Positions 4,812 through 23,852 of a stretch of DNA of 64,000 nucleotides are shown here, piece by piece. The notes beneath the pieces are model-generated. The model was not told where the DNA came from and did no database searches. It saw only the letters and a program-made list of their open reading frames with translations. The translations under genes and the position numbers were made by a program. Positions within the stretch are counted from its first letter, which is position 1. Every line of letters begins with the position of its first letter. The stretch is from Bacteroidota bacterium (GTDB lineage: Bacteria; Bacteroidota; Bacteroidia; Flavobacteriales; Flavobacteriaceae). The stretch is taken from contig JAJRPS010000003.1 in assembly GCA_024280635.1 (NCBI GenBank), forward strand, positions 1-64,000. Reading direction: 5' to 3'.

Positions 4812-5153
4812 ATGCACGAATTATCTATAGCTATGGGTATAATTAAAATAGCAGAAGAAGAAACTAAAAAAGCCAACAAAACAAAAGTTGAGTTAATAGA
4901 GTTAGAAATCGGTTCATTAGCTGGGGTTGAATTAGAATCATTAAATTATGTCTGGGCAACAGCCACTAAAGGCACTGTACTAGAAAAAGCAGAACTTGAA
5001 ATAGATTATAAAATTGCTCAAGCTAGGTGTTTAGAATGTAAGACTCTCTATGAAATGGAAAAAGTCTATGATAGTTGCCCTAAGTGCAATAGTTTTTTTA
5101 AAGAAATTATACAAGGAAAAGAATTAAGAGTAAAATCATTAGAAGTTAATTAA
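4812..5153 (+). CDS. hypA: hydrogenase nickel incorporation protein HypA
   Basis: MHELSIAMGII N-terminus; zinc-binding CLEC...CPKC. Confidence 0.96.
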   Translation: MHELSIAMGIIKIAEEETKKANKTKVELIELEIGSLAGVELESLNYVWATATKGTVLEKAELEIDYKIAQARCLECKTLYEMEKVYDSCPKCNSFFKEIIQGKELRVKSLEVN

Positions 5154-5165
5154 AAAATATATAAT

Positions 5166-5963
5166 ATGTGTGGAGTATGCGGATGCGGTACAGATGGTAT
5201 CGCAATAAATAAACCTAATCAAACAAGTAATCATGACCATGACCATAATCATCACACTCATGATCATCACACTCATGATCATCACACTCATGACAAGACT
5301 ATTATTGATTTAGAAAGAGATATTTTAGGGCAAAATAATATTGAAGCTGCAAGAAATAGAGGTTATTTTGAAGCCAAAAATATTTTCACTTTAAATCTAG
5401 TAAGTTCTCCTGGTTCAGGAAAAACATCAATACTAGAAACTACACTAAAGGATTTAAAAAACGAAATCCCATTTTACGTAATTGAAGGTGACCAACAGAC
5501 CCTTAATGACGCAGACAGAATAGATGCCTTAAATATACCTGTTGTACAGGTAAATACAGGGAAAGGTTGTCATTTAGAAAGCGACATGATTTACAATGCA
5601 GTAAAAGAATTAAAACCTAAAAATGATTCCATTTTAATGATAGAAAATGTAGGGAATTTAGTTTGTCCTTCAATGTTTGACTTAGGGGAACAAAAAAGAG
5701 TGGTTATTATTAGCATTACTGAAGGAGAAGATAAACCAATAAAATACCCCGACATGTTCCAAAGTGCTGATATTTGTATCATAAATAAAATGGATTTATT
5801 ACCTCATTTAAACTTTGACTTAGAGGCTTTAAAAAATTATGCCTTACAAGTGAACCATCATTTACAATTTTTTGAAGTTTCTGCTACAACAGGACAGGGT
5901 ATGGATGCTTGGTATAATTGGTTAAAAAAAGAATTAAAATCTAATAACTTAAAAAACGCCTAA
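5166..5963 (+). CDS. hypB: hydrogenase nickel incorporation GTPase HypB with His-rich N-terminus
   Basis: MCGVCGCG, HDHDHNHHTHDHHTHDHHTHDK, P-loop SSPGSGKTS, NKMDLL. Confidence 0.97.
   Translation: MCGVCGCGTDGIAINKPNQTSNHDHDHNHHTHDHHTHDHHTHDKTIIDLERDILGQNNIEAARNRGYFEAKNIFTLNLVSSPGSGKTSILETTLKDLKNEIPFYVIEGDQQTLNDADRIDALNIPVVQVNTGKGCHLESDMIYNAVKELKPKNDSILMIENVGNLVCPSMFDLGEQKRVVIISITEGEDKPIKYPDMFQSADICIINKMDLLPHLNFDLEALKNYALQVNHHLQFFEVSATTGQGMDAWYNWLKKELKSNNLKNA
5250..5294 (+). repeat. in-frame 15-bp tandem repeat (catcacactcatgat, about 3 copies) in hypB
   Basis: Direct repeat at 5250, 5265 and 5280 encoding HHTHD units. Confidence 0.95.
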
Positions 5964-5965
5964 TT

Positions 5966-6343
5966 ATGTGCTTATCAATACCTGGTAAATTAATCAAAAT
6001 AGTTGCTGAACTTGACCCTACTTTTAGAATCGGAAAAGTAGATTTTGAAGGCATCCAAAAAGATGTTAACCTAGCAATGGTTCCTGAAGCAAAAATTGGA
6101 GATTATGTCCTAGTACACGTAGGAGCTGCTATTAGTGTTATAGATGAAGAAGAAGCAAAAATTACTTTTGACATCTTAATGCAGATGGGAGAAACAGATG
6201 ATTTAAATCTTAGCAACTGGACAAAAGAAGTGCTTAACAAAGAAGACGAAAATAAAAATCTTGATAACAGTTCACCAATTACGAGACTAAAAGACTCTAA
6301 AAAAAATGATTTAAAAGAAAATGATAATGCAGCCTGGGATTAA
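5966..6343 (+). CDS. hypC: HypC/HybG-family hydrogenase chaperone with hydrophilic C-terminal extension
   Basis: MCLSIPGKLI start; 125 aa against about 75-90 typical. Confidence 0.95.
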   Translation: MCLSIPGKLIKIVAELDPTFRIGKVDFEGIQKDVNLAMVPEAKIGDYVLVHVGAAISVIDEEEAKITFDILMQMGETDDLNLSNWTKEVLNKEDENKNLDNSSPITRLKDSKKNDLKENDNAAWD

Positions 6344-7392
6344 CAAATTCTAGGCAATTGCTCACCTACCTGCATGCTTACTACACGCCTACCGCCCATT
6401 GTATTTGTAATTACAACTTTTGAAGGGTGCTGATTTGTTATTTCCCCAATAATAGTTGCATGTTTACTATTCTCAAAAGTCCTCATTTTAGATTCAATTT
6501 CATTTGCTTTTTCCGCTGACACTATAGCTATATACACACCCTCATTAGCAGTATATAGAGGGTCTAGCCCTAATATCTCACAAGCGCTTTTTACTTGAGT
6601 ATTAACCGGTATTTTACTGTCGTTTAAAAGAATTCCAGTATTTGTATCACGAGCTATTTCATTTAATGTAGATGACAGCCCTCCACGAGTAGGATCCCTA
6701 AACAAGTGAATATCCTCGCCAAATTCATCTAACAATGATATTATAGAATGATTTAAACAAGTAGTGTCACTTTCTATAGTTGTTTCAAATTCTAATCCTT
6801 GCCTTACTGACATTATTGCTATACCATGAGTAGCTATTTGATTGCTTACAATTACTTTATCTCCCACTTTAATATTACTAATGTCAATGTTAGCTTTCGG
6901 ATGCACTTCCCCTAAACCTGTTGTATTAATGAATATTTTATCTCCTTTTCCCTTATCAACTACTTTCGTATCACCGGTAACTACAATAACACCTGCTTTA
7001 TCACACGCATTTTTAATCCCTACAAGAATATCCCAAAATTCTGTCATTGGCAATCCTTCTTCAAGAATAAAACTTAAAGATATATATTTTGGAACAGCAC
7101 CACACATCGCTACATCATTTACGGTTCCATTTACCGCTAACTCACCAATGTTTCCGCCAGGGAAAAATATAGGAGAAATAACAAAACTATCTGTAGAAAA
7201 AGCTATTTCACCATCTATTTTTAAATAAGCCCCATCATGTCGTTTATCTAATTTTTCATTTTTCAAAACATCAAAAACACCACTATCCAAAAGTTTATTT
7301 GTTAATAATCCTCCAGAACCATGTCCCATTGTTATAAATTCAAAATCAAATTTTGGCATAGGGCAAGACAAAGTCATTTTCATAATTTTCAT
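6340..7392 (-). CDS. hypE: hydrogenase expression/formation protein HypE
   Basis: MGHGSGGLLTNKL, FSTDSFVISPIFFPGGNIGELAVNGTVNDVAMCGA, C-terminal PRIC. Confidence 0.97.
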   Translation of the reverse strand: MKIMKMTLSCPMPKFDFEFITMGHGSGGLLTNKLLDSGVFDVLKNEKLDKRHDGAYLKIDGEIAFSTDSFVISPIFFPGGNIGELAVNGTVNDVAMCGAVPKYISLSFILEEGLPMTEFWDILVGIKNACDKAGVIVVTGDTKVVDKGKGDKIFINTTGLGEVHPKANIDISNIKVGDKVIVSNQIATHGIAIMSVRQGLEFETTIESDTTCLNHSIISLLDEFGEDIHLFRDPTRGGLSSTLNEIARDTNTGILLNDSKIPVNTQVKSACEILGLDPLYTANEGVYIAIVSAEKANEIESKMRTFENSKHATIIGEITNQHPSKVVITNTMGGRRVVSMQVGEQLPRIC

Positions 7393-7462: not shown

Positions 7463-8110
7463 ATGCCAGTATTTAAATTACAAAATCATATAATAGCTTT
7501 TCCTCCTGCTAACTTTGCTGATAACGACGGTTTTTTAGCGGAAGGTGGTGAAATTACCGCTCATTGGTTATTAGAAGGATATAAAAGTGGGTTTTTTCTT
7601 TGGACTAACCCAATGAGATATCCTAAATGGTGGACACCAGACCCTAGAATAGTCATGTTTCCTAATGACATATCTATCCCCGAATATGTTGAAGACGGGA
7701 TAAAAAAAGCGAACTTTAAAGTTTCATTTAATCAAGATTTGGAAGGAGTGATGAAATTAATTCAGTCTGTTGAAAATCAAGGTGAAATGAATAACGGATG
7801 GCTAACAGGAAAGCTTGTTAAAGCTTATACTGAAATTAAAGAAAGAGGGCTTGCATTTTCTGTAGAAGTTTATCAAAATGAAAAACTAGTAGGTGGAGCA
7901 TTTGGAGCTTGTAATGGAAAGATATATTTTGGCGAATATATAAATGAAACTGTAGCGTTTGCGAAAGAATTCGCATTAATAGAATTGGCTAAAAAAGCAC
8001 AAGAATTAGATTTAGCACTATTAGATTTACAAAAAGAAACAAACGAAACGATTGATGTAGGCTTAAGTGAAATATCAAGAAGCGAATACATAAGAATCTT
8101 AAAACAATAA
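7463..8110 (+). CDS. divergent leucyl/phenylalanyl-tRNA-protein transferase (Aat)-like protein
   Basis: FPPANFADNDGFLAEGGEITAHWLLEGYKSGFFLW...WWTPDPR, GWLTGKLVKAYTEIKERGLAFSVEVYQNEKLVGGAFGACNGKIYFGE match Aat; the canonical GESMFS and C-terminal HL.SLGA segments are altered. Confidence 0.8.
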   Translation: MPVFKLQNHIIAFPPANFADNDGFLAEGGEITAHWLLEGYKSGFFLWTNPMRYPKWWTPDPRIVMFPNDISIPEYVEDGIKKANFKVSFNQDLEGVMKLIQSVENQGEMNNGWLTGKLVKAYTEIKERGLAFSVEVYQNEKLVGGAFGACNGKIYFGEYINETVAFAKEFALIELAKKAQELDLALLDLQKETNETIDVGLSEISRSEYIRILKQ

Positions 8111-8114
8111 AAAA

Positions 8115-9974
8115 ATGATCAAAATAGATAATACAATAAATACTGCAAATATTTTAGTTGAAAGTAAAAAGTATAACCAAGCTATTGAATTATATAAAGA
8201 AGCTGTAAAAGATTCTGAAAGGGACGAACAAAAAATTGACCTTTACAATACCATAGGAAGGCTATATTTAAATCTAAAAGACATTAATAATGCTATAACC
8301 TATTTTGAACTATCATTAGCTACTCATAACGCGTTGAAAAAAGATAAAGCGAATACAATTATTATAAACAAAGCCACTGTGCTAAATAACCTTGGTGTTT
8401 TAGTTGTAAAAAATAACCCTAAAAAAGCAATGGTTTTTCATAAAGAAGCATTAGCTATTTTTGAAAATGTCTCACCAGAAGAAATTGATCTTTACAACAT
8501 CCATATTGCCAACACACATTACTCTTATGCAGATGCTGCTTTTGCAAAAGGTGATTATTATATGGCCAAAAAGCAATACAAAGCTGCTATTGAAAAATAT
8601 ACCGAAATAGGAATATCTATTGCTACAGAACCATTTATTGCAAATGCACATTACAATTTAGGTAATGTTTATACTGACGAAAATGCAGTCTATGACGCTA
8701 GAAGTAATTACTTAAGAGCTTTAAAAATATTTAGAAAATTATCTGAAGGTAATCCTAGCGCTTTTAACTCTTTAGTTGCTGCAACATATAATAACCTAGC
8801 TGTAACTGCTAAAACCATGTATCAATACGGTGATGCCATAACATATTATGAAAACTCATTAAAAGTATATGAGCAATTAATAGCCGAAAATAGAGATGCT
8901 TATTTACCTTTTTATGCTGCAACACTTAACAGTACTGCTATAATCTACTCTGAACAACATGAAGTGAAAGATGATTATGATAGTTTCGGTTTAACTGGAT
9001 TTTCTGGGTTTGGTACACTCTCTACTGACAATTCAATTGGATCTATTGAAAAAAAGGCTCAATTAGAAGATTACCGAAAAAGTAAAGCATTAGAGTATTA
9101 TACTCAAGCAATAAAAATATACAATGAACTAGCAGTTAATCAACCTGAGCTTTATACTCATTACTTAGCAACATCTCTTCACAATTTAGGTGTACTATAT
9201 GACAGTAAAGGAGACTTTAAGTTAGCTGAAGAAAACTTTGAAAAAGCGTTAAAAATAAGAAGAAATTTAGCCGAACAGCAACCCGAATCTTTTAATTTAG
9301 ATGTGTGTGTTACACTATTTAATATTGTAACAATGTACCAAAATTTATTAGAGCAAACAGTAAATCTAGATTTTAAAGTAGAGTCTTTAAAAATATTAGC
9401 TGAAATTAAGACCAGAATGAAAGGCTATGAAGATGATAAAAGACCTGTTGTACAAAGCATGTTTAGTGATTACAAATATTTTTTAGACTATTTTAATACC
9501 ATTAACCTAGAATACTTAGATGTATTTGATGCCATTGTTAAAGAAAATGCCGTTTTAGAAAAAATCAACGAAACTTTTGACCCAAAAGAGAAGCTGAAAA
9601 TGCAAAAACATGTAGTAAACTTGTATTACTTATTGAAAGAAAAATACCCAAACAACCCAAGGTTAAAAGAAGTACTCTTAAATGCTTACGTAAAATATTC
9701 ATGGTTTGCTTTGCGGTCAAATGAATTACCACTAGCTGAATTATCTATAAAAAGTGGTTATAAAATAAATAACGATAACCTAAATTTAAAAGCAAATGAA
9801 GCACATTTGTTTTTATTAAAAAAAGATGTTAAAAAAGCTATTAATATTTACAAGTCTTTATATGGAAAAGTAAACGAAGAAAATAAATCATTTTCAAATG
9901 TTATTGCCGAAGACTTAAGTACCCTAGAAAGAGATGGTTTACTTACTAAAGAACTAATATCTACCCTTATATAA
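8115..9974 (+). CDS. tetratricopeptide repeat protein
   Basis: 619 aa with many TPR motifs (AIELYKEAVKDSE..., AITYFELSLATHN, ALEYYTQAIKIYNEL, LAEENFEKALKIRRNLAE); no signal peptide evident. Confidence 0.85.
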   Translation: MIKIDNTINTANILVESKKYNQAIELYKEAVKDSERDEQKIDLYNTIGRLYLNLKDINNAITYFELSLATHNALKKDKANTIIINKATVLNNLGVLVVKNNPKKAMVFHKEALAIFENVSPEEIDLYNIHIANTHYSYADAAFAKGDYYMAKKQYKAAIEKYTEIGISIATEPFIANAHYNLGNVYTDENAVYDARSNYLRALKIFRKLSEGNPSAFNSLVAATYNNLAVTAKTMYQYGDAITYYENSLKVYEQLIAENRDAYLPFYAATLNSTAIIYSEQHEVKDDYDSFGLTGFSGFGTLSTDNSIGSIEKKAQLEDYRKSKALEYYTQAIKIYNELAVNQPELYTHYLATSLHNLGVLYDSKGDFKLAEENFEKALKIRRNLAEQQPESFNLDVCVTLFNIVTMYQNLLEQTVNLDFKVESLKILAEIKTRMKGYEDDKRPVVQSMFSDYKYFLDYFNTINLEYLDVFDAIVKENAVLEKINETFDPKEKLKMQKHVVNLYYLLKEKYPNNPRLKEVLLNAYVKYSWFALRSNELPLAELSIKSGYKINNDNLNLKANEAHLFLLKKDVKKAINIYKSLYGKVNEENKSFSNVIAEDLSTLERDGLLTKELISTLI

Positions 9975-9983
9975 AATACTATA

Positions 9984-10796
9984 ATGCATTTTAACCACTT
10001 ATCTTACAGCCTTATTTGTAATTCTTGTAATACTAAAACAAAAGGAGAAACCACTATTTTTACTGAAGACTCTCCAAAGAAATACATTCCTGAAAAACTA
10101 GGTAAAGAAATAGGTGGGTTTTCTAATTTAATTTGTGAATCTTGCAAAGCCATTGGAGAATTTAGGATTCATTCAACGAGTTTAAATGGAAGTGGAAAAA
10201 TTTTAAAAAAGTTTGAATTGACTGTTCATAAAAATGAAGGAAAGCTTAAAAGCTCTACAAAATTTTCTGACTTTTCAGATCAGCAACTTGATGAAATCTA
10301 CATCAAACTGAGAGCACGAATTGAAGAACTAAAAGGGCAATATATCCCTATAAAAAACAATGGATATGCCCATTTTTTAGTGGAAATTATTGATTTAAAA
10401 CCCTACATAAGAGTTACAAATTACGAAACAGAAGGAATTTCTACTGAAGAGTTAATTGACACTATTAATAGCCTTACAGGAAAAGAAAACATAAAAGGTA
10501 TTTCGGGTAAATTAAATAAAAAATTAGAAGACGCCTTTGAAGATTTAAAAGCTAATCAAAACGACCCTTTAGTTATAACTCATTTACAAAGTAAAGACAA
10601 ACTAACCAATTTTTATATCATAGCTAAATTACCAGATGCTGAAATTTATTATGGAATTTTAACCAATGAATATACACAACAAAAAATAATTGAAGGCATC
10701 CCTCTTGTTAATTTTGAACCTTTAGATTTAATAGAAGTACCCATGACGCCATTTAAAGCCGTTCCGTTTATTATTGAAGATAAAAAAAGAGTTTAA
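9984..10796 (+). CDS. hypothetical protein with N-terminal CxxC...CxxC zinc-ribbon-like domain
   Basis: LICNSC...LICESC at the N-terminus, about 270 aa, 9 bp after the TPR gene. Confidence 0.7.
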   Translation: MHFNHLSYSLICNSCNTKTKGETTIFTEDSPKKYIPEKLGKEIGGFSNLICESCKAIGEFRIHSTSLNGSGKILKKFELTVHKNEGKLKSSTKFSDFSDQQLDEIYIKLRARIEELKGQYIPIKNNGYAHFLVEIIDLKPYIRVTNYETEGISTEELIDTINSLTGKENIKGISGKLNKKLEDAFEDLKANQNDPLVITHLQSKDKLTNFYIIAKLPDAEIYYGILTNEYTQQKIIEGIPLVNFEPLDLIEVPMTPFKAVPFIIEDKKRV

Positions 10797-10799
10797 GCC

Positions 10800-11030
10800 A
10801 TGGCTATTTTTAAAAATAAAATACTTCATGACCTAGTTTGTCAAAACTGCAATAACCTCCAATTAAATGGAATTAGCAGCATTAATACTAATCAATCAAT
10901 AGAAATATTATCTCATCAAAAACTTGTTGAAATTTTAAACAATTTTGAACAAAAAAAATGTACCAATTGTAACACTAAGGGTAAGTGGATTGTTTCTAAA
11001 ATATTTATTGTTGAATCATTAAAAGAATAA
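10800..11030 (+). CDS. small CxxC...CxxC protein, possible paralogue of the N-terminal domain of the preceding gene
   Basis: 76 aa; LVCQNC...KKCTNC with Cys-pair spacing similar to the neighbouring 270-aa protein; 3-bp gap to it. Confidence 0.7.
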   Translation: MAIFKNKILHDLVCQNCNNLQLNGISSINTNQSIEILSHQKLVEILNNFEQKKCTNCNTKGKWIVSKIFIVESLKE

Positions 11031-11039
11031 TCTTTAACC

Positions 11040-12766
11040 TTAATATTTAATATTTTCCCACTTCCTTTTTCTATAAATTTCCCTTCTGTTTTGGTACAAA
11101 TTTTGCACTGTTTCAGAGGTAGAATCTTCAATTTTATGTACAAAACAAAACCGCTTATAATTATAGTTTAAATCGTTTTCAAAAAAGTTTTTGTGCATTT
11201 TTTCAAGTTCTTCTTTTCTATATTGCTCTAGAGGCTTATTACGTTCGTCTTTTTTTCGTTGAAATTTTTTTTCTCTAATTAGTTTATCAAAATAATCAAG
11301 TTCAATTATTTTTTTTGCTTGATCTTTTACATATTTAACAAATTCATTGTTATTTCCCCCAAAATATCCATCAATTAGTCCAATTTCATTAGCAACAGCT
11401 ACCCCCCATGGCAAACAATCTTCTGTAAATCGTTCTGCTTTTTTAAAACCAATTCTTTTGGGTAATAAATAAGTCCAGTATTCTGAACCATAAAGCCCCA
11501 TGTTTTTAGTGTGAGGGTTTAAAACAATTCCATCTCTACATAAAACTTTATCGGCAGCTAAAGCTAAAGATACGCCTCCTGCTCCCGCATTACCTTGTAA
11601 TGCTGAAATTATATAATGTTCTGTTGACGAAATCAGTTCTAAAATCAAATTATCAATGGCATTTATATTGTCCCAAGATTCTACTGCTGGTTTATTAGAG
11701 TTTTCAATAATATTTAAATGAATTCCGTTTGACCAAACATCACTACCTCCCATTAAAACAATTAGCCTTACTCTTAATTTGGCTTCAATTATAGTTTCCC
11801 TCAACCTATTGCATTGATTTGTATTCATCGCACCGTTATAAAAATCAAAATAAATATATCCAATTTCATTTTCTTCAACAAATCGTATTTCTTGCCAAGT
11901 ATTGGTATTAAAAACATCAAATGGGGATAACGGTTCTTCTTTTAGTTCCAAATCTTTTCCTTCTAAAGCTATTGTTGCAGGTACTTTTATAAATCCTTTT
12001 TCGTTCTTCTTTAAATGCGTCAACCATATCGCATCATCTTTAGTTGCAATACAAATAGCGTTATTCCTTTGAGCCAAAATATCTCCAGGATTTCCTTTTA
12101 AATTATCTTCTAAATGTACGCCATAACAAAAATATTCTTCATCAAATAAAGAAATCAATACCCCTGGAGAACTGTCTGCTGCCTTTATTTTCCTTATAAT
12201 TGAATGTGTGTCATCACTCCATGAAAAGCAAAAATCACTTTGTGTAGTTTTATTATTCCATTTTCCTTTAATATCAGAACAAGAGTAGTCTAGTTTTTGA
12301 GCTTTAAAATTTGGATTATTAAAATTATCAATAGCTTGTAAAACACCTTTAGATGCAGCTTGTGTAACCTCATTTCTATATAATTCTCCTTTACTAACAT
12401 CTCTTAGCTTAAATGAATTATAACTCCAAATATCTCCTGCATCCATTTTTTCTACTGCTTGCAGAATAGTAACCCCCCATTCTTTTTCTTGTCTCAATAT
12501 AGCCCAATCCAATGAAGAAGCCCCTCTATCTCCTTTATACCAGGATGAACAATTAAACAAATGTATTTTGTGTAAATTTCCTCAGGAATTTTTGAAATCA
12601 AAAAAGGGGAAATTATGATGTCAGGGTTATAACTATCAGTTTCAGAAATTAATTGCTTTTCTGATTTCGGAATAACAACATTTACTTCATGATTTAGTCT
12701 ATCTAACTCTATCCAAAGCCTTTGAGCCATCCCGTTGAATGCTGTAGTTATGAATTGAATTCTCAT
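11040..12766 (-). pseudogene. hypX: HypX/HoxX-family hydrogenase maturation protein, split by a frameshift
   Basis: 90-aa ORF (12494..12766) ends ...LIVHPGIK; the next frame continues GDRGASSLDWAILRQEKEWGVTILQAVEKMDAGDIW..., then a C-terminal enoyl-CoA-hydratase-like domain (SALQGNAGAGGVSLALAADKV). Whether this is a pseudogene, a sequencing error or recoding cannot be told here. Confidence 0.85.
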
Positions 12767-13867
12767 TTATTCTATCTCCTCTATCATGTCTGCAAAATGG
12801 TAATATGCTGCACAGGCTCCTTCTGAACTTACCATTGGAGCTCCTATTGGAAATTGCGGAGTACAAGTTTTTCCAAATTCAGGACATTGATTAGGTCTGA
12901 TTATACCTTTCATAATATCCCCTGCTAAACAAGCTTGATTTTCTTCTGCTTCTTCAATATTCACATCAAATTTTAACATCGCATCAAATGCAGCATAGTT
13001 TTCTTTTAATTGATATCCACTCATTGGAATGTTTTCCATACCACGCCAAACCCTGTCTGTAATTTCAAATACCTTAGCAATAACATCTTGGGCTGTTTCA
13101 TTACCCTCTTCTGTAACTATTCTTGAGTATTGGTTTTCCACTTCAAACCTACCTTCTTCTAATTGTTTTACAGTCATTAAAATGCCTTGTAATATATCTA
13201 ACGGCTCAAATCCTGTTACAACAATAGGTACTTCAAATTTTTCTACTAAAGGATAGTATTCCCAATATCCCATAATAGCACATACATGACCAGCAGCCAA
13301 AAACCCGTCAATATTACTATCAACATCCTCCATTACATTTTCAATTGCTGGAGGGACTAATACATGAGATGTTAAAATTGAGTAATTTTTTAATCCTAAT
13401 TTTTCGGCATGTATAACAGATAATGCATTTGCAGGTGCTGTAGTTTCAAAACCAACTGCAAAAAAAACGACTTCTTTATCAAGATTTTCTTTAGCTATAT
13501 TAACAGCCTCTAATGGAGAGTATAAAATTCTAATATCTGCCCCTTGTGCTTTCGCTTCTAAAATACTTTTACTGGATCCTGGTACTCTAATCATATCTCC
13601 AAAACTACACAGGATAACATTTTTTTCTTCTGCTAAGTATATTGCTTTGTCAATAAGATGCAAAGGGGTAACACAAACTGGACATCCCGGACCGTGAACC
13701 ATGGTAATTTCTTTTGGAAGAACACTTAAAATTCCATTTTTCACCAATGAATGTGTCTGCCCTCCACAAACCTCCATTATTTTCCATGGTTTGGTAACCG
13801 TTTTTTTTATTTCCTCTAAAACTTTTAACGCTAACTCAGGATCTCTATATTCAGTTAAATATTTCAT
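12767..13867 (-). CDS. hypD: hydrogenase formation protein HypD
   Basis: [41 protein letters not shown]. Confidence 0.97.
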
Positions 13868-14267: not shown

Positions 14268-15341
14268 TTAATGTCCATAATTCATTTCATCAATTTTACC
14301 CCCTAACAGCCTTTTTTGAACTATTAAATATATAAATAATAAAATAAAACCTACTACTCCCCAATAAGCAGCTACACTTAATCCATAATTTGTACTTGCA
14401 GTATTATATATGGTTAATGATTCGTTTATAGTATTTGTAGACGGTAATACAACAGGAAACATAGATGCTAATGTTGATGTTATAGCACCTAATATCATTA
14501 AAGAGGATAGTATAAAGCTGTACATATCATTTTTATACTTTCTAATAAAAAACAGTCCAAATAGGCTTCCAAAATATAGTGTTGGAAAAATAAAAAACAG
14601 AGGATTTTCTATGAAATTTTTAAATGGTGTTGGATTAATTAAATGCCATATTGCTAATGAAAATATTGTTAAAACTACTTGAGCAATTGCTAAATTAAAG
14701 ATTACTTTTTTTAATTTATTATTAATAGACGAGTTTGTTTTTAAAATAACCCAATTGGCTCCGTGAATTGAAAGCGTTACTACAGATATAATTCCAATTG
14801 TTAAAGTGAACCAATCAATAACACCTACATCTACTTGTGTAGGGCTAAAGCTACTATTCCATAAAGGTAAAAAGAAATAATATTTTTCATATAATGAAAC
14901 TCCATTTTCTACCCCTCCTAAATTCACTCCTCTTGCTACATTACCTAATGCTACTCCAAAAAACAATGCTAACAACAAACTAGAAACTCCAAAAGCTTTA
15001 TCCCAAATATCTTTCCACATTTGGTATTTAAATTGACCTCTAAACTCCAAGCCTATTGCCCTAAAAACAATAAACCATAAAATCATAATTAAGGGCAAAT
15101 AAAACCCACTAAATGCAGATGCATATAATAATGGAAATGCCATAAAAATCATACCACCACCGGCTACCAACCAAACTTCATTTGAATCCCAAAATAACCC
15201 TGCAGCTTTAGCAATGACTTCTTTATCTTTTTCTTTTTTAGCAAAAAATAAATGTATAATACCTGTACCAAAATCATATCCGTCCAAAACAAAAAAGACC
15301 CCTAGAACGATTACTACTAATATAAACCAAAAAACTTCCAT
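14268..15341 (-). CDS. cydB: cytochrome bd ubiquinol oxidase subunit II
   Basis: FVLDGYDFGTGIIHLF, LFWDSNEVWLVAGGGMIFMAFPLLYASAFSGFY. Confidence 0.96.
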   Translation of the reverse strand: MEVFWFILVVIVLGVFFVLDGYDFGTGIIHLFFAKKEKDKEVIAKAAGLFWDSNEVWLVAGGGMIFMAFPLLYASAFSGFYLPLIMILWFIVFRAIGLEFRGQFKYQMWKDIWDKAFGVSSLLLALFFGVALGNVARGVNLGGVENGVSLYEKYYFFLPLWNSSFSPTQVDVGVIDWFTLTIGIISVVTLSIHGANWVILKTNSSINNKLKKVIFNLAIAQVVLTIFSLAIWHLINPTPFKNFIENPLFFIFPTLYFGSLFGLFFIRKYKNDMYSFILSSLMILGAITSTLASMFPVVLPSTNTINESLTIYNTASTNYGLSVAAYWGVVGFILLFIYLIVQKRLLGGKIDEMNYGH

Positions 15342-15362
15342 AATAACTTAATTTTTAACTAT

Positions 15363-16715
15363 TTAATGAGATGATTGCGATGATTGAAGTGCTGGACCTT
15401 CATTAATAGTTTTACCAACCAACACTAAAAATAGTAACCCTAAAAGCATATAAAGAGCTACAAACCCTAATAAGGTAAATAATGTATTTCCTGATGATAC
15501 TGTTGGAGATAAACCTTCTTTTGTACGCAATAAACCATAAACAAGAAAAGGTTGCCTACCTAGCTCAGCCGTATACCATCCCGTAATATTAGCTATGTAA
15601 GGAAAGGGTACTAAAAACATAATTGTCCATAATAAAGATTTAACTTTATGTAATTTATTTTTCCATAGAAAAAAACCTGCTAAAGCCATAATTGCTATAA
15701 AAATAGTACCTAAACCTACCATAATATGGTATGCATAATATAACGCAGGTATATTATCTGGAAGATCTTCTTTTTTAAATTGATCCATTCCTCGTATTTG
15801 CTTGTCCCAGTCTTGGTAAGTTAAAAAACTTAATATATTGGGTACGGCTATTTTATTATCTAATTTTTTATCAAGCATATTGGGCTGACCTATTAATATA
15901 ATTTCTGCCCCATCATGCTCTGTTTCAAAAATACCTTCCATTGCCGCAAAAGTAGCTGGCTGAAACTTTGCTACATTTTTTGCATTCCAATCACCTGTAG
16001 GCATTGCTACTAAAAAACTAGATATTAAACCAAATACAACTCCTGTTTTTAAAAATAATTTACCATATTCAACATTTTTATTTCTTAAAACATAAAACGC
16101 TCCAATTGATGAAACTACGAATGATGATGTAACTAGAGATGCCATTTGATTGTGTAAAAACGCAGGTATTGTCCATGGGTTTTGAAAAACTAGAGCGCTA
16201 AAACTAGTAAGATTAAAAACTCCATTTTCAAGTAATTCGTACCCTACAGGATTTTGCATCCAAGCATTTGTTGCTAATATTAAATAACCACTTGCCCAAG
16301 ACCCCAAAAACACTAAAAAAGCCATTAAAAAGTGCATTTTTTTACTCATTAACTTTTCGCCAAAAATAAATAATACTAAAAAAGAGGATTCTAAAAAGAA
16401 AGAAAACATTCCTTCCATAGCAAGTGTTTGCCCAATAACATTACCTGTTAGCCTTGAAAATTCTGACCAATTGGTCCCAAACTGAAACTCCATAGGAATT
16501 CCTGTCACAACTCCCATTGTAAAATTAATTGCAAATATTTTCATGAAAAAATGAGCAGCTGTATTATATTTTTCATCTTTATCTTTTCCAAAAACATATT
16601 TACCTTTTAGATAAACAATAATTAAGGCTAACCCCATTGTTAATTGAGGAAATATATAATGAAACGTAATTGTGAATGCAAATTGCAATCTGTCATAAAA
16701 TAGCATGTCTTCCAT
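15363..16715 (-). CDS. cydA: cytochrome bd ubiquinol oxidase subunit I
   Basis: FYDRLQFAFTITFHYIFPQLTMGLALIIVYLK; GVVTGIPMEFQFGTNWSEFSRLTGNVIGQTLAMEGMFSFFLES; GWYTAELGRQPFLVYGLLRT. Confidence 0.97.
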   Translation of the reverse strand: MEDMLFYDRLQFAFTITFHYIFPQLTMGLALIIVYLKGKYVFGKDKDEKYNTAAHFFMKIFAINFTMGVVTGIPMEFQFGTNWSEFSRLTGNVIGQTLAMEGMFSFFLESSFLVLFIFGEKLMSKKMHFLMAFLVFLGSWASGYLILATNAWMQNPVGYELLENGVFNLTSFSALVFQNPWTIPAFLHNQMASLVTSSFVVSSIGAFYVLRNKNVEYGKLFLKTGVVFGLISSFLVAMPTGDWNAKNVAKFQPATFAAMEGIFETEHDGAEIILIGQPNMLDKKLDNKIAVPNILSFLTYQDWDKQIRGMDQFKKEDLPDNIPALYYAYHIMVGLGTIFIAIMALAGFFLWKNKLHKVKSLLWTIMFLVPFPYIANITGWYTAELGRQPFLVYGLLRTKEGLSPTVSSGNTLFTLLGFVALYMLLGLLFLVLVGKTINEGPALQSSQSSH

Positions 16716-16771: not shown

Positions 16772-17113
16772 TTACGTATTTAACTCAGCATATCGTTTTC
16801 CAAATTGTTCAATTTTTAAAGGAGTATATTTTTTTAATATTGACTGTAAAATTAAGACAGGAGAATCTTCACTAATTTTTATCATTTTGTTAAATTCATT
16901 TGAAATGTCCCAAAACTCATCATCAGTCAAATCAATAGAGTCAGGGACTGCATCTATTTCTCTCTCCATCATTACAAAACCCAAATTTGGAGTTATTACA
17001 GTTTCGTATTCTAATGTTTTTTTAGGCTTATCATCAATAACAACTTCTTTTTTTGTTTGATTTTTAGCAACGCCCTCTGCTCTTTTATCTAAAAACTTCT
17101 TTAAACTACTCAT
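16772..17113 (-). CDS. hypothetical protein between hypF and cydA
   Basis: 113 aa, same strand, 5-bp gap to hypF; no recognised domain. Confidence 0.65.
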   Translation of the reverse strand: MSSLKKFLDKRAEGVAKNQTKKEVVIDDKPKKTLEYETVITPNLGFVMMEREIDAVPDSIDLTDDEFWDISNEFNKMIKISEDSPVLILQSILKKYTPLKIEQFGKRYAELNT

Positions 17114-17118
17114 TTTTT

Positions 17119-19410
17119 TTAGTCTTTATTATGAAGGTAATACATTAATTGCCCAAATGAAATATTTTCATCATTTGGAGATAATTGTTTATGAAACAAT
17201 AGTACAAATTTAGATGACATAAATGACAATATCAATTCTTTTAACCATTGATTTTGAAATACACCACCGCTAAAAGCTATTTTATTGCATCCTGTTTCTT
17301 TCTGATGTTTTAATGCTATATTATTAATATAATGAGCAAGTGTTATATGAAATTTAGCAGCTATAAAATCGGGTTGATATTCCTTTTCCAAGTCCATCAT
17401 TACCCCTTCAATAATTAATTGATTAATGTCTTTTGGTATTTTTTCTCCTATAATATAAGAATAATATTTTGTGAAATTATTAGCTCTAAAGTATCGGTAT
17501 GCTGCGTTTTCCAGTTTTAAAGCTGCCTCTCCCTCATAAGTTTGCTTATCTATATTTAATACAATAGAAGCTACAGCATCAAAAAGTCTTCCTACACTTG
17601 TTGATTTTAATGTTGATGTTGTTATTAACTTTTGAAAGATATTCCATTCGGTTTTTGAAAATTTATTTTCTATTCTACCTTTTATATCTAGATTAGCACA
17701 TAAAACCAATGCAGAAATTCTTGGCTCTTTTGGTAATTTATCTCCTAATATAAAAGGAAACTCATTTATATGATTAACCCTTGTTGTTTTTCCGTTATTA
17801 TAATTGAAAAATTCTCCTCCCCAAATATTCCCATCATCTCCTAGTCCAGTACCATCCCATATTACTCCCAATACATCCTCTTTAGTTCTTAACAAATCAT
17901 TTTCTGCCAATACAGCAAATAAATGTGCTTTATGGTGTTGAACTTTATATAACTCAACACCAAGACTGTTAGCTAAGTCGTTTCCTAATTCAGAAGTAAA
18001 ATAGTTTTGATGTTTGTCTATTAAAATAATTTTAGTGTCAAATTTCAAGATTTGTTTATACTGTTTTAAGTTTTGCTTGAACAATTCTTGTGTATCAAAA
18101 CTATCGGTATTTCCAATATACTGACTAACATGTATTTTTTGATTATTTAAAATTGTAAATGTGCTTTTTAACATCGCACCTAAAGCTAAAATTGGTTTAT
18201 TAGGCAACCTTAAATTTTCTTGAATAAATGAAGGTGCTAATCCTCTTGACCTCCTTATAATTGTTTTGTAAGATTTAATTGAACTTAATTTTACAACACT
18301 ATCATCTTGAGGTATTTTTATTTCACGATTGTTTGATAGGACAATATCAGACAACTCTACTAGGCTTTTTAATGATTTCTTTTCATCAAATAAAATAGGT
18401 GCTCCAGAAACATTAGCGCTTGTATATATAATTGGTTTCTTAAATTTATCTAATAAAATTTTAAATAGTGCAGAATTAGGAAGTACAACTCCTATGGAAT
18501 TTAATCCTGGAGCAATCTCATTTGTAGACAATTTTGTCCACCTATCCATTTCTTTTTTTAAGGTAAACAATATAATTGGAGCGTATAATTCTTCTATTTC
18601 AAGTTTTTCTCCTATTCCCATTTCTACATCTTCTGCTAATTCATAAACATCATGATACATTAATGCAAATGGCTTACTAGGACGTCGCTTTAACTTACGT
18701 AGCCTTTCTATCGCTTTAGGGTTATTAGCATCACAAGTTAACACAAAACCTCCAGTTCCTTTAATAGCTATTATTTTACCTTCTGTCCATTTTTGAACAA
18801 TATAATCTAAATCTAAAAAATTATTAACCCATTCATTATTTTCAAAAAGCGATAATTCTATACGACAAGCTGGACATGAATTGGTTTGAGAATGAAAACG
18901 GCGATTTTTTGGATTTTTATACTCATTTTCACAATTAACACACATTTTATAGCTTATCATTGAGGTTGTTTTCCTATCATATGGCAAATCATTTATAATG
19001 GAAAGTCTTGGTCCACAATTAACACAGGTGGTAAACGGGTATTGGAATCTTCTGTTTTCTAACGCATCTATTTCTTTTATGCAATTATTACAAATTCCAT
19101 AGTCTGGAGTTAAAAACAAGTTGGAATTTTGTGTATTGGAATTGTCATTAATTTGGAATGAATTAAATGATAAACAATCAACCTTTTCATAAACACATGA
19201 TGTAATAATTGCATTTTGGGGTTTCTTCTTTATTAATTGTTCAATTAATTTATCAACATCTGTAGCATTACAATTTAAATAAATAACAACTCCTTCATTT
19301 GTGTTATTAACTGAACCTAACAAAGATTCTGCTGAAAAAAAATTGTATACAAAGGGTCTAAAGCCAACACCCTGCACAATTCCATTAATTCTAATTTTAT
19401 AAGTATCCAC
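17119..19410 (-). CDS. hypF: carbamoyltransferase HypF
   Basis: N-terminal acylphosphatase domain RINGIVQGVGFRPFVYNFF, zinc fingers CNNCIKEIDALENRRFQYPFTTCVNCGPR, VQHHKAHLFAVLAEN. Confidence 0.97.
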   Translation of the reverse strand: MDTYKIRINGIVQGVGFRPFVYNFFSAESLLGSVNNTNEGVVIYLNCNATDVDKLIEQLIKKKPQNAIITSCVYEKVDCLSFNSFQINDNSNTQNSNLFLTPDYGICNNCIKEIDALENRRFQYPFTTCVNCGPRLSIINDLPYDRKTTSMISYKMCVNCENEYKNPKNRRFHSQTNSCPACRIELSLFENNEWVNNFLDLDYIVQKWTEGKIIAIKGTGGFVLTCDANNPKAIERLRKLKRRPSKPFALMYHDVYELAEDVEMGIGEKLEIEELYAPIILFTLKKEMDRWTKLSTNEIAPGLNSIGVVLPNSALFKILLDKFKKPIIYTSANVSGAPILFDEKKSLKSLVELSDIVLSNNREIKIPQDDSVVKLSSIKSYKTIIRRSRGLAPSFIQENLRLPNKPILALGAMLKSTFTILNNQKIHVSQYIGNTDSFDTQELFKQNLKQYKQILKFDTKIILIDKHQNYFTSELGNDLANSLGVELYKVQHHKAHLFAVLAENDLLRTKEDVLGVIWDGTGLGDDGNIWGGEFFNYNNGKTTRVNHINEFPFILGDKLPKEPRISALVLCANLDIKGRIENKFSKTEWNIFQKLITTSTLKSTSVGRLFDAVASIVLNIDKQTYEGEAALKLENAAYRYFRANNFTKYYSYIIGEKIPKDINQLIIEGVMMDLEKEYQPDFIAAKFHITLAHYINNIALKHQKETGCNKIAFSGGVFQNQWLKELILSFMSSKFVLLFHKQLSPNDENISFGQLMYYLHNKD

Positions 19411-19416
19411 GTATTT

Positions 19417-19947
19417 TTATTCTCCTTTATTATGTATTTCTCTACACAGCTTTAAAATTGCATCAATAGCTTTTGGAACAGAAGCTTCCACTTTTTCAGT
19501 CATACCAACAACCATTGGTTGAATGCCATTTACAGATATTGTTATAAGGTGAAGCTCTGGTAGTTTATCTAGTATATACAAAGCTTCAACCATATCTTTT
19601 AATCCAACATCATGTACGCTCAATGACTTGGGAAAATCGGAAGCAAATTTTGGATACCTAACTACAATTGTTCCCGGTTCTAAATCATCCATAGTTGCAT
19701 CTAAAAAAACAACCTTTCCATACTCATCAAATACATTCATTAAAAAGAAACCTCCTGTACCTCCATCTAATACCTCTACATATTCTGGAAGCTCCATTCC
19801 TTCCATTTCATGTATTATATGAACTCCTACTCCTTCATCTCCCATTAAGTAGTTTCCGATGCCTAATACTAGTATTTTATCTTTTTTATTTTCAAAAAAA
19901 ATATTTGTTAAGTTTGCTGTTATAGAAGATATCTCTTTTTTTGCCAT
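19417..19947 (-). CDS. hyaD: hydrogenase maturation protease (HyaD/HupD family)
   Basis: VLGIGNYLMGDEGVGVHII; EVLDGGTGGFFLM; LSVHDVGLKD. Confidence 0.95.
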   Translation of the reverse strand: MAKKEISSITANLTNIFFENKKDKILVLGIGNYLMGDEGVGVHIIHEMEGMELPEYVEVLDGGTGGFFLMNVFDEYGKVVFLDATMDDLEPGTIVVRYPKFASDFPKSLSVHDVGLKDMVEALYILDKLPELHLITISVNGIQPMVVGMTEKVEASVPKAIDAILKLCREIHNKGE

Positions 19948-20022: not shown

Positions 20023-20844
20023 TTATTCTTTATTTTTAAATTTATTATTTTCATCGTAATTCAGGTCAGAATCTTCATCACTCTCTTTTGAAAAATCAAT
20101 ACCTGTTTTCTTAACTCTTTCTGTTCTTACAAATTTAAATCCACTTATCATTGCAGATACTTCTCCCCTTGCATGTAACCATCCATGAAAAAGAACTAAA
20201 TAAATATGTATTATAATAAATAATATAATTAACCACATTGAAATTCTGTGAATTTGTCTTGCAACAAAGTCACCCCCTAAAAGATCAGGAACCCAAGAAA
20301 ATAGTTTTGGAAGCCACCAACTAGATAAATCTGAATACAAACCAAATCCTGTAAAAACAAGAGCTAACCCTACAAAAAACATTATTACGTAAGCAGATGT
20401 TGCCATATAATTATGCCCTATACTAATGTCGGATAAATTATGTTTTTTCTCTTTCATTAATAATACATCGTACTTTATAACATGCCAAATGTTACCTATT
20501 GCTTTTTTATTAATGGTAAAATCTCTATTAAATGGCAAGAATGCTGTCCAATGCGCATATTCGTTTCCTACAAATGCCCAGTAAAAACGCAATATCATTA
20601 CTCCAAAAAATACATAAGCTGCAATAAAATGAATCACTTTTACTTTTGCAAATAAGAATGTATTCCACGCTTCTGATTGCGACATAAGTGCTGGAGGATC
20701 TCCTATTATAAATCCTGTTACACTTAACACTAATATAGCAACTACATTAGCCCAATGAAATATACGTACAGGTAATTGCCAAACATATACTCTTTTATAT
20801 GACTTTGTAGGTATTTTAGTAATTTCTTTTTTATTTGTATCCAT
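20023..20844 (-). CDS. hyaC: Ni/Fe-hydrogenase b-type cytochrome subunit
   Basis: VYVWQLPVRIFHWANVVAILVLSVTGFIIG; MWLIILFIIIHIYLVLFHGWLHARGEVSAMISGFKF. Confidence 0.95.
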   Translation of the reverse strand: MDTNKKEITKIPTKSYKRVYVWQLPVRIFHWANVVAILVLSVTGFIIGDPPALMSQSEAWNTFLFAKVKVIHFIAAYVFFGVMILRFYWAFVGNEYAHWTAFLPFNRDFTINKKAIGNIWHVIKYDVLLMKEKKHNLSDISIGHNYMATSAYVIMFFVGLALVFTGFGLYSDLSSWWLPKLFSWVPDLLGGDFVARQIHRISMWLIILFIIIHIYLVLFHGWLHARGEVSAMISGFKFVRTERVKKTGIDFSKESDEDSDLNYDENNKFKNKE

Positions 20845-20873
20845 ATTTATTGAAAATAATGATTAGAAATTAA

Positions 20874-22670
20874 TTATACTGAACAAACTGATATTCCATC
20901 AACGCCTACAATATGTTTTCCATGTTCATCATATAAATGAACAGAACAAGCAATACAAGGGTCAAATGAATGAATTGTTCTTAAAATTTCCAAAGGCAAG
21001 TTATCATCTGCAACGGGAGTACCTAATAAGGTAGATTCATACGCAGAACGCTGTCCTTTTGGATCTCTAGGAGATGCATTCCAAGTAGAAGGAACTACTT
21101 GTTGATAATTATCTGTTTTACCATCTTTAATTTTAATCCAATGACTTAAAGCACCACGAGGAGCTTCTCCAAACCCAACACCTTTACATTCTTTTGGCCA
21201 AGTTTCTGGTTCCCATTTATCATGGTTTGCCATACGATCATCACCATTTTTAATGTTGGTCATTAATTGTTTAAAATCATCTTGCGCCCAATTTGCAGCT
21301 TCAGCAGCGCAAATTGCTCTTGCAGCTGTTCTTCCTAAAGTTGAAAATAATGCTGTAGCTGGCACATTAAGAGTACTTAAAACTGTGTCTACATAATGTT
21401 TTGTTGATTCTACTCCAGAAACATAATTAACTAAAACTCTAGCTAATGGACCTACTTCCATAGGCTTTCCTTTCCAACGTGGTGTTTTAATAAAGCTATA
21501 TTTTTCTTCAACATTTAAGAAATCATAAGGTGGTTTAGGTCCTGAATAATTAATATTTGTTTCTCCTTCCCAAGGTTCTAATCCTTCTTTATCTCCATCA
21601 ACCTTATCATAATCATACCAAGAGTTGTTTATGTATTCTTTAATATAATCACTATTTTCAACATTTCTATTTCCAACATCATGTATTTTAGTTAAATCTC
21701 CGTCTAAAATAACACCTGGTTTATATCTATAAGTATCTACATCATTGTAACTTCCTGTAGGGAATTCACCATAACTCATATAGTTTTTAAATCCTGTTCC
21801 TATTGCCCCCCAGTCTTTATAGAAACCTCCGATAGCAATAACATCCGGTAAGTAAACTTCATCTACAAACTTTTTACCATCGTTAATAAGCCTTTCAACA
21901 AAAGCTAATCTTTCAGCATTCAATCCTCCTGCATCATCTGTATTTATTGCACAAGCCATACCCCCAACTAAGTAATTTGGGTGTGGATTTTTACCTCCAA
22001 AAATAGCATGTACTTTTACAATTTCTTTTTGCCATTCTAAAGCTTCTAAATAATGAGCTGTAGCCATTAAATTTGCTTCTGGCGGTAATTTCATTTGAGG
22101 ATGTCCCCAATATCCGTTAGCGAAAATACCTAACTGTCCACTTTCAACAAATTTTGTTAACCTTTTTTGTAAATCAGCAAAATAACCAGGAGAGCTTTTT
22201 GCCCATGGAGAAATACTTTGTGCCAATTCTGATGTCGCTTTAGGATCTGCTTTTAATGAGCTAACTATATCTACCCAGTCCAATGCATGTAAGTGATAAA
22301 AATGCACAACATGATCATGCATATATAACACTTGTAACATTATATTCCTAACCAATTCTGCATTTGGCGGAACCACAATTCCGATAGCATCTTCCACTGC
22401 CCTAACTGAAACTAAAGCATGCATACTCGTACACACCCCACATGTTCTTTGTACAAACGCCCAAACATCTCTAGGATCTCTTCCTTTTACTATATTTTCA
22501 AGACCACGAACCATCGTACAAGAGCTCCAAGCATCAACAATAACACCATCTTTAACCTCCGCTTCTATTCTTAAGTGCCCTTCAATTCTACTAATTGGAT
22601 CAACAACAATTCTGTTCCCTCCATTTTTACCTAATTTTGTAGGTATTTGCCCTTCTTTATTTTCTGACAT
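20874..22670 (-). CDS. hyaB: [NiFe]-hydrogenase large subunit, group 1
   Basis: L1 motif RTCGVCTSMHAL and L2 motif DPCIACSVH; DPISRIEGHLRIE; C-terminal extension after the L2 His for protease cleavage. Confidence 0.98.
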   Translation of the reverse strand: MSENKEGQIPTKLGKNGGNRIVVDPISRIEGHLRIEAEVKDGVIVDAWSSCTMVRGLENIVKGRDPRDVWAFVQRTCGVCTSMHALVSVRAVEDAIGIVVPPNAELVRNIMLQVLYMHDHVVHFYHLHALDWVDIVSSLKADPKATSELAQSISPWAKSSPGYFADLQKRLTKFVESGQLGIFANGYWGHPQMKLPPEANLMATAHYLEALEWQKEIVKVHAIFGGKNPHPNYLVGGMACAINTDDAGGLNAERLAFVERLINDGKKFVDEVYLPDVIAIGGFYKDWGAIGTGFKNYMSYGEFPTGSYNDVDTYRYKPGVILDGDLTKIHDVGNRNVENSDYIKEYINNSWYDYDKVDGDKEGLEPWEGETNINYSGPKPPYDFLNVEEKYSFIKTPRWKGKPMEVGPLARVLVNYVSGVESTKHYVDTVLSTLNVPATALFSTLGRTAARAICAAEAANWAQDDFKQLMTNIKNGDDRMANHDKWEPETWPKECKGVGFGEAPRGALSHWIKIKDGKTDNYQQVVPSTWNASPRDPKGQRSAYESTLLGTPVADDNLPLEILRTIHSFDPCIACSVHLYDEHGKHIVGVDGISVCSV

Positions 22671-22718
22671 TTAAAATTATTTTAATATGAATAAATTCCT
22701 TCTAAACTTAAATTAACC

Positions 22719-23852
22719 TTATCTTTCGTTTTCTGGAATCTGTAAATTATCTTTATTTTCTATTCCTTTATTAATTCGTCTAGATACGTCTTTCCTTTTC
22801 TTAACAAGACTTGCTACCGCATGAACACCAACACCAACTGCTAATGCTCCTGCCACTGCTTTCCCTACTCCATCTGCAGTTGCTTCAATTCCAAATCCAG
22901 GTAAAGCAGTTAATCTTTCATAGAAAGGTCCGTTATCCCAGAAGTCATCTTCACTACATCCAATACATCCGTGTCCTGACTGAATAGGGAAACTAACCCC
23001 TCCATTCCATTTAATAGTACCACATGAATTATACGTCATTGGCCCTTTACAACCTACTTTATATAAACAATATCCTTTTTTAGCATTTTCATCATCAAAA
23101 GATTCTGCAAATAAACCTGCATCATAATAGGCTCTTCTATAGCAACTATCATGAACTCTTTTTGCATAAAAAGCTTTTGGTCTGTTCTGTCTATCTAATT
23201 CTGGTAATTTACCAAAAGCCACAACATGTACAATAATACCAGCCATTACCTCTCCAATTGGAGGACAACCTGGTACTCGTATAACGGGTTTGTTTGTTAG
23301 CTTATGAATAGGGGTAGCATTTGTTGGGTTAGGAGCTGCCGCCTGAACGCATCCATTAGAAGCACAAGAACCCCATGCAATAATTGCTTTAGCTCCTTCT
23401 GCTGCTTCTTTAAATTGCTCAATAGCTGTTTTACCTGCAATACAACAATAGTTCCCATCATCACCAGTAGGGATAGATCCTTCAACACATAATATATATT
23501 CACCATGATATTTTTTCATAGTATCATGTTTTGCAGCTTCTGCCTGATGCCCAGAAGCAGCCATCAATGTTAATGAATAATCTAATGATATTTTATCTAA
23601 AATAATATCTGCTACAATTGGATGATCTGACCTAATAAATGATTCACTACAACATGTGCACTCTTGATAATGATCCCAAATAACTGGCAATCTAGGTGTT
23701 TTTTCTAATGCCTTAGTAATTTGACCTATAGCAGAGTTTTGTAACCCCATAAATGCTGCCATATAAGTTGTGAATTTCATAAAATCTCTTCTTGAATAAC
23801 CTTGCTTGATTATTGTTTGAAGATAAGTATCTCTTTCTTTGTTTATAGCCAT
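22719..23852 (-). CDS. hyaA: [NiFe]-hydrogenase small subunit with Tat signal and O2-tolerant-type proximal cluster ligands
   Basis: YSRRDFMKFTTYMAAFMGL Tat motif; ECTCCSESFIRSD (extra Cys); GNYCCIAGK; C-terminal hydrophobic anchor GKAVAGALAVGVGVHAVASLV. Confidence 0.97.
   Translation of the reverse strand: MAINKERDTYLQTIIKQGYSRRDFMKFTTYMAAFMGLQNSAIGQITKALEKTPRLPVIWDHYQECTCCSESFIRSDHPIVADIILDKISLDYSLTLMAASGHQAEAAKHDTMKKYHGEYILCVEGSIPTGDDGNYCCIAGKTAIEQFKEAAEGAKAIIAWGSCASNGCVQAAAPNPTNATPIHKLTNKPVIRVPGCPPIGEVMAGIIVHVVAFGKLPELDRQNRPKAFYAKRVHDSCYRRAYYDAGLFAESFDDENAKKGYCLYKVGCKGPMTYNSCGTIKWNGGVSFPIQSGHGCIGCSEDDFWDNGPFYERLTALPGFGIEATADGVGKAVAGALAVGVGVHAVASLVKKRKDVSRRINKGIENKDNLQIPENER

Follow-up and report, generated by a model that had tools for sequence, protein, structure and literature searches.

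Introduction

In Aat, the leucyl/phenylalanyl-tRNA-protein transferase of Escherichia coli, Trp49 stacks on the 3'-adenosine of the tRNA, and Glu156 and Gln188 anchor the N-terminal Arg or Lys of the acceptor (PMC4964394). Tetratricopeptide repeat (TPR) proteins have been described among hydrogenase maturation genes: the extended hyp operon of Nostoc, asr0689-alr0693, encodes the TPR protein alr0691 (PMC3126725), and the Huc-type hydrogenase cluster includes a TPR gene (PMC12976888). Hydrogenases of Proteobacteria with a six-Cys small subunit have a further set of accessory genes for small-subunit maturation, HoxO, HoxQ, HoxR, HoxT, and HoxV (HyaE, HyaF, HupGHIJK). Here we describe a hydrogenase island of the Flavobacteriaceae in which a paralogue of Aat, designated AatL, is encoded directly beside a TPR protein. 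The region analyzed, called the window, is a stretch of 64,000 nt, positions 1 to 64,000 of the forward strand of contig JAJRPS010000003.1 (GCA_024280635.1), from a metagenome-assembled genome (G000) of 1.9 Mb that is 80% complete.

Four open reading frames (ORFs) on the + strand make up the cluster of interest: AatL (215 residues; 7463..8110), the TPR protein (619 residues; 8115..9974), CxxC270 (270 residues, a zinc-ribbon-like N-terminus followed by about 210 residues of unknown domain; 9984..10796), and CxxC76 (76 residues, a small CxxC...CxxC protein; 10800..11030). Intergenic gaps are 4, 9, and 3 bp. The cluster is flanked on one side by hypE and on the other by hypX and then hypD, all on the - strand. 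An earlier note on this DNA had described four closely spaced same-strand genes between hypE and hypX, an arrangement with which our ORF calls and family assignments agree, and had proposed them as an undescribed hydrogenase-linked module. We find such a module in AatL and TPR, which always lie by hyp genes, but it comprises two genes, the CxxC pair having been found in none of the other genomes and loci searched. Our preferred reading, to which we assign a probability of roughly 0.45, is that AatL and TPR act together as a dedicated cytosolic accessory factor of the six-Cys (group-1d type) uptake hydrogenase of Bacteroidota.

Distribution and linkage of the AatL-TPR pair

Scanning GTDB-wide with HyaA, the hydrogenase small subunit of the window, gave 80 named loci (81 with the window), each taken with flanks of up to 10 kb. 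The pair was sought in the 80 loci by tblastn and ORF comparison, which placed AatL next to TPR in many cases; TPR-like ORFs of about 428 residues in L052 and L070 were excluded from the counts. A profile built from 23 AatL sequences was then run on the genomes of those loci that lacked the pair or had it truncated. The pair turned up in seven more genomes, as well as in L073, where it had escaped ORF calling, each time with AatL next to the TPR gene and with hyp genes adjoining. Over all 81 loci, the pair is present in 34, absent from 33, and unscorable in 14, the last mostly because contigs end. Carriers include Muricauda/Allomuricauda, Robiginitalea, Maribacter, and the Saprospiraceae. As a separate observation, AatL-lacking loci L042, L043, L063, L066, L071, L074, L079, and L081 have a second hydrogenase cassette between hypA and hypB, with proteins of about 607 and 422 residues, a large-subunit-like protein of 482 residues, and a protease.

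Linkage was also examined from the side of AatL. Among 400 genomes of the window's family, AatL scores above cut-off in 11, and in all 11 it adjoins TPR and hyp genes. The small-subunit C-terminal family PF14720 occurs in 48 of these 400 genomes, comprising nine of the 11 that are AatL-positive versus 39 of the 389 that are AatL-negative (Fisher p 1e-7). The two AatL-positive genomes without PF14720 are fragmentary assemblies that have hyp genes on their AatL contigs; the contig in G282 is only 4.2 kb, and the one in G615 stops at cytochrome b, next to the missing hyaAB. No AatL outside a hydrogenase locus was found in 396 phylum-wide genomes or in 150 genomes around Phaeodactylibacter. Profile matches of 162-223 bits (in Lutibacter, Flavobacterium, Saprospiraceae, and genomes G664, G689, and G1094) were rejected as housekeeping Aat; those placed in the alignment retain the basic helix described below, and the match in G1094 has no hyp or TPR neighbor. 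Extra borderline matches in the phylum and Phaeodactylibacter samples, at 206-223 bits, were also taken as housekeeping Aat, and a search for plasmid-borne AatL homologs gave only ordinary Aat.

The position of the pair within the island varies. In most Flavobacteriaceae it directly follows hypC, extending hypABC. In the window's clade and in the Saprospiraceae it lies between hypX and hypE or adjoins hypE, and in three loci (L012, L013, L014) it adjoins hypF. The pair is intact in at least three different positions of the island. That it has stayed together, and inside the island, through these rearrangements is what most strongly favors a function tied to hydrogenase. A fixed pair that sits inside hydrogenase assembly genes and was found nowhere else is therefore a strong candidate for a new helper in assembly or checking.

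Features of AatL and its TPR partner

AatL matches the Pfam family Leu_Phe_trans (PF03588) with an E-value of 8.8e-39 (133 bits), and falls under the cut-off of the NCBIfam aat equivalog model, at 102.2 versus 143.55 bits. Its AlphaFold model has a predicted local distance difference test score (pLDDT) of 91, and the best matches in PDB, 2CXA and 2DPT, align over the whole length with template modeling (TM) scores of 0.89-0.90. We compared residues of 23 AatL sequences with those of 25 housekeeping Aats, using E. coli numbering. Trp49, Trp111, Glu156, and Asp186 are invariant in all 23, and Gln188 is retained in 20, with His in the other three; equivalents in the window's AatL include W47, E158, D188, and Q190. 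The hydrophobic amino-acid pocket is largely retained as well. Every AatL, however, has Tyr in place of Ser157 and Lys in place of Val189, and nearly all have lost Met158 and the Ser166-Lys167 pair. The basic helix is gone in nearly all 23, the mean net charge of segment 72-90 being +4.5 in true Aats (n=25) versus -0.8 in AatL (p 3e-9). With the key residues kept but the basic helix gone, the pocket is retained and modified while the grip on tRNA looks lost, and AatL is probably tRNA-independent.

The second gene matches Pfam TPR families and adjoins AatL in every locus seen. Its AlphaFold model (pLDDT 90) is an all-helical superhelix, nearest to the TPRs of LGN/Pins and O-GlcNAc transferase, which are peptide-binding scaffolds. 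The net charge of the TPR protein is acidic, from -5 to -38, so it supplies no obvious basic surface for tRNA.

Evolution of the pair

Phylogenetic analysis groups the AatL sequences in a single clade, separate from housekeeping Aat, with support of 100/100, which identifies AatL as a monophyletic paralogue descended from that enzyme. The host genome of the window encodes a housekeeping Aat on a separate contig, scoring 246 bits to PF03588 versus the 133 bits of AatL. Distances among AatL sequences follow distances among HyaA sequences (Mantel r 0.82, equaled in 0 of 999 permutations). Explaining presence and absence takes at least 10 changes on the HyaA tree; the pair is present in its early branches (Phaeodactylibacter, Saprospiraceae) and missing from Lutibacter and the Flavobacterium johnsoniae group. 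We read this pattern as old presence with repeated loss, although truncated contigs account for some of the absences.

Hydrogenase type and the missing Hox factors

HyaA of the window contains ECTCCS and the twin-arginine motif SRRDF, as in six-Cys O2-tolerant (group 1d type) enzymes, and the C.CC (six-Cys) motif is found in all 81 related HyaA sequences. Searches of the window locus with Cupriavidus necator and E. coli queries found no HoxO, HoxQ, HoxR, HoxT, or HoxV, as the earlier note had reported. Among ORFs of the 80 other loci, C. necator HoxO, HoxQ, HoxR, and HoxT had no homolog, and HoxV, searched over the loci only, matched just the large subunit. The note had named Hox homologs elsewhere in the same genome as evidence against its proposal; genome-wide searches for the HupH_C, HybE, rubredoxin, and HyaE families gave largely negative results. 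HupH_C was found in 0 of 16 hydrogenase-bearing genomes, HybE in 0 of 18, and 16 of 18 genomes were without rubredoxin. HyaE gave only borderline matches, of a kind also obtained from control genomes such as Bacillus subtilis. The window's own genome, at 80% completeness, yielded neither rubredoxin nor HyaE.

The tested representatives that lack the pair also lack HoxQ, HoxT, and HoxR, save two with some rubredoxin, and the absence of Hox factors holds both with and without AatL-TPR. Since Hox factors are missing regardless of the pair, and all 81 HyaA sequences have the six-Cys motif, the pair is not an obligatory stand-in for them. AatL, TPR, and the remaining module proteins gave no significant match to C. 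necator HoxO, HoxQ, HoxR, HoxT, or HoxV by phmmer or hhalign, and we rejected the idea that they are diverged forms of these factors, there being no sequence or profile signal.

CxxC270 and CxxC76

The two CxxC proteins have in common a domain of the form CxxC-(36-37 residues)-CxxC, encoded at 9984-10160 and 10800-11030. Residues 1-60 of CxxC270 and the small CxxC76 are paralogous: their local alignment scores 65, a value that none of 2000 shuffles reached. Searches of Pfam, NCBIfam, and PADLOC gave neither protein a family match above cut-off, PHROGs was similarly unhelpful, and a resemblance of CxxC76 to FdhE was set aside as a single weak match (E 0.036) that is not significant. Neither occurs in any of the 80 related loci. 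No homolog of CxxC270 was found in 198 genomes of the order or in 18 close or AatL-bearing relatives, the search being a single-sequence query with a fast-evolving protein, whose distant kin could escape it. At L158, the intact locus most closely related to the window's (AatL 76% identical), hypX comes directly after TPR. With no homolog found, both proteins were rejected as conserved members of the module. Because these genes are found only in the window genome, we regard them as a recent lineage-specific local addition, outside the conserved pair. Of the four families whose neighborhoods the earlier note expected to track hydrogenases, AatL and TPR adjoin hyp genes wherever AatL is found, but the CxxC genes appear in no other locus.

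Proposed role and alternative explanations

The best reading of these results is that the pair is a dispensable, hydrogenase-specific unit for maturation or quality control. The TPR protein would serve as a scaffold that holds a hydrogenase client, whether the precursor of a subunit or a complex of Hyp proteins. AatL would forgo canonical tRNA loading, and its former acceptor pocket (Glu156, Asp186, and Gln188, with the new Tyr157 and Lys189) would bind an N-terminal or basic segment of the client and possibly modify it, in a chaperone, proofreading, or modification step. The client could be either hydrogenase subunit or a Hyp protein, and the pair would improve or check maturation without being essential for it. 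We propose, more tentatively, a history to match, in which a Bacteroidota duplicate of Aat lost tRNA binding and became, with TPR as its obligate partner, a new type of hydrogenase-specific N-terminal modifier or proofreading chaperone for a six-Cys hydrogenase in a lineage that has no HoxO, HoxQ, HoxR, HoxT, or HoxV.

Several observations weigh against the accessory-factor reading. Of 67 scorable related loci, 33 have the same six-Cys small subunit and no AatL-TPR, and in 32 of these 33 a genome-wide search with the AatL profile gave either no match or one of at most 215 bits, in the range of housekeeping Aat; whatever the pair does must therefore be dispensable or replaceable. Across HyaA, HyaB, HyaC, and HyaD and among the Hyp proteins, no residue cleanly tracks AatL, the best reaching 0.85 with phylogeny uncorrected, so no client is indicated. 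A comparison of HyaB C-terminal peptides also turned up none that cleanly tracks AatL presence. The argument for loss of tRNA binding leans on the presumed role of the helix at E. coli 72-90, whose basic residues would grip tRNA. Finally, the retention of Trp49, Trp111, Asp186, and the hydrophobic pocket may mean that some transfer chemistry persists.

In one alternative, AatL is still an aminoacyl-tRNA-dependent transferase: TPR would bring in immature or oxygen-damaged subunits, AatL would attach an amino acid at the N-terminus or at a lysine, and the N-degron pathway would then degrade the product, making this a quality-control tag specific to hydrogenase. The Aat fold (TM 0.89-0.90) and the large retention of Trp49, the hydrophobic pocket, Glu156, and Gln188, with their roles in the E. 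coli enzyme (PMC4964394), are consistent with such tagging. We consider it rather unlikely, however, given a basic helix gone from nearly all 23 AatL sequences, an acidic TPR partner, His for Gln188 in three sequences, and replacement of Ser157 and Met158. Unlikely, too, is a role for the pair in the Hyp machinery or on the large subunit in place of the small one, for example in handling the N-terminus of HypC, or of pre-HyaB ahead of the protease. The case for this is one of gene order, the pair extending hypABC after hypC in most relatives and elsewhere adjoining hypE, hypX, or hypF, not structural genes, but no residue of HypC or of the HyaB C-terminus distinguishes loci with AatL from those without it.

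The broadest proposal, that all four genes substitute for HoxO, HoxQ, HoxR, HoxT, and HoxV and load, protect, or export the iron-sulfur-rich small subunit, draws on the lack of Hox homologs in the loci, on the genome-wide lack of HupH_C, HybE, and mostly rubredoxin, and on the Nostoc precedent, where the TPR protein of the extended hyp operon has been proposed to act in small-subunit maturation (PMC3126725). It is quite improbable as it stands. Two of its four genes are not conserved, AatL and TPR have no sequence or profile likeness to the Hox factors, and the 33 loci without the pair have the same small subunit and, where tested, no HoxQ or HoxT either; the earlier note's view of the module, taken as the general Bacteroidota replacement for the Hox set, did not survive this last comparison. 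Highly improbable, in our estimation, is a merely historical association in which the pair hitch-hikes with hyp genes and functions in something unrelated. Patchy presence (34 present, 33 absent, 14 unscorable), with its 10 or more changes on the HyaA tree, would suit hitch-hiking, but the exclusive linkage survives rearrangement in several positions, and no AatL was found in genomes outside hydrogenase loci.

These genomes appear to mature the iron-sulfur-rich small subunit of an O2-tolerant hydrogenase without the textbook Hox factors, and AatL-TPR offers a concrete, widespread, and genetically testable maturation candidate outside Proteobacteria. AatL is also an apparent case of an N-degron enzyme repurposed away from tRNA, and the pair may matter for heterologous production of Bacteroidota six-Cys hydrogenases.

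Other genes of the island

The island contains hypA-F, hypX, a maturation protease, cytochrome b, and both hydrogenase subunits, which bears out the earlier note on hypA-F, protease, and cytochrome b. Upstream of the cluster lie hypA, hypB, and hypC (4812..6343, +) and then hypE (6340..7392, -), divergent from AatL. On the far side, hypX (11040..12766, -) is convergent with the cluster and frameshifted. Its reading frame is broken near 12533-12536, with residues 1-77 in one frame and 79-575 in another, where hypX of relatives is one intact ORF of 577-579 residues; the frameshift may be an assembly error or a real lesion. Next come hypD (12767..13867, -), hypF with the hydrogenase maturation protease (17119..19947, -), and the genes for the membrane-bound uptake [NiFe] hydrogenase (20023..23852, -), namely cytochrome b (20023-20844), the large subunit (20874-22670), and the small subunit with its ECTCCS motif and twin-arginine signal (22719-23852).

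Between hypD and hypF, and so within the hyp island, are cydA and cydB (14268-16715, -), encoding a cytochrome bd oxidase. They recall the hya-app arrangement of E. coli. No cydA or cydB was found at the 80 related loci, within the stretch examined around each, and the two genes look like a local insertion. A 113-residue protein with no family match is encoded between hypF and the hypD/cyd genes (16772-17113, -). Only members of the window's clade (L004, L006, L014, L055, L058, and G615) keep it at this position, and it is a further candidate for a hydrogenase accessory gene.

Comparison with known systems

A literature search, with most subscription papers beyond its reach, found no paper tying Aat to hydrogenases, and the mostly open papers searched included no TPR protein in a hydrogenase operon with an Aat paralogue. 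The Hox set of Proteobacteria resembles the pair in consisting of accessory genes within the hyp island of a six-Cys hydrogenase, but has no sequence or profile similarity to it and is itself missing here. Nostoc alr0691 and the Huc TPR protein, compared by description only, are alike in being TPR proteins of a hydrogenase maturation operon; they differ in being accompanied by NifU-like and NHL proteins, with no Aat paralogue, and in serving another hydrogenase group. Aminoacyl-tRNA-dependent transferases of the FemX, ATE1, MprF, and Sbb17 types have in common with AatL a GNAT-like catalytic domain (TM 0.4-0.5), but are much remoter from it than Aat is and give no sign of a common substrate.

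Aat itself, as represented by E. coli structures 2CXA, 2DPS, 2DPT, and 2Z3K and by PF03588, is the system to which AatL is closest. The fold is the same over the whole length, and both have the WW.PDPR motif, Trp49, Trp111, Glu156, Asp186, and usually Gln188. AatL differs in forming a separate clade that coexists with housekeeping Aat in the same genomes, in its sub-cut-off NCBIfam score, in its loss of the basic helix, Met158, and Ser166-Lys167 and gain of Tyr157 and Lys189, and in its constant pairing with a TPR protein in hydrogenase loci.

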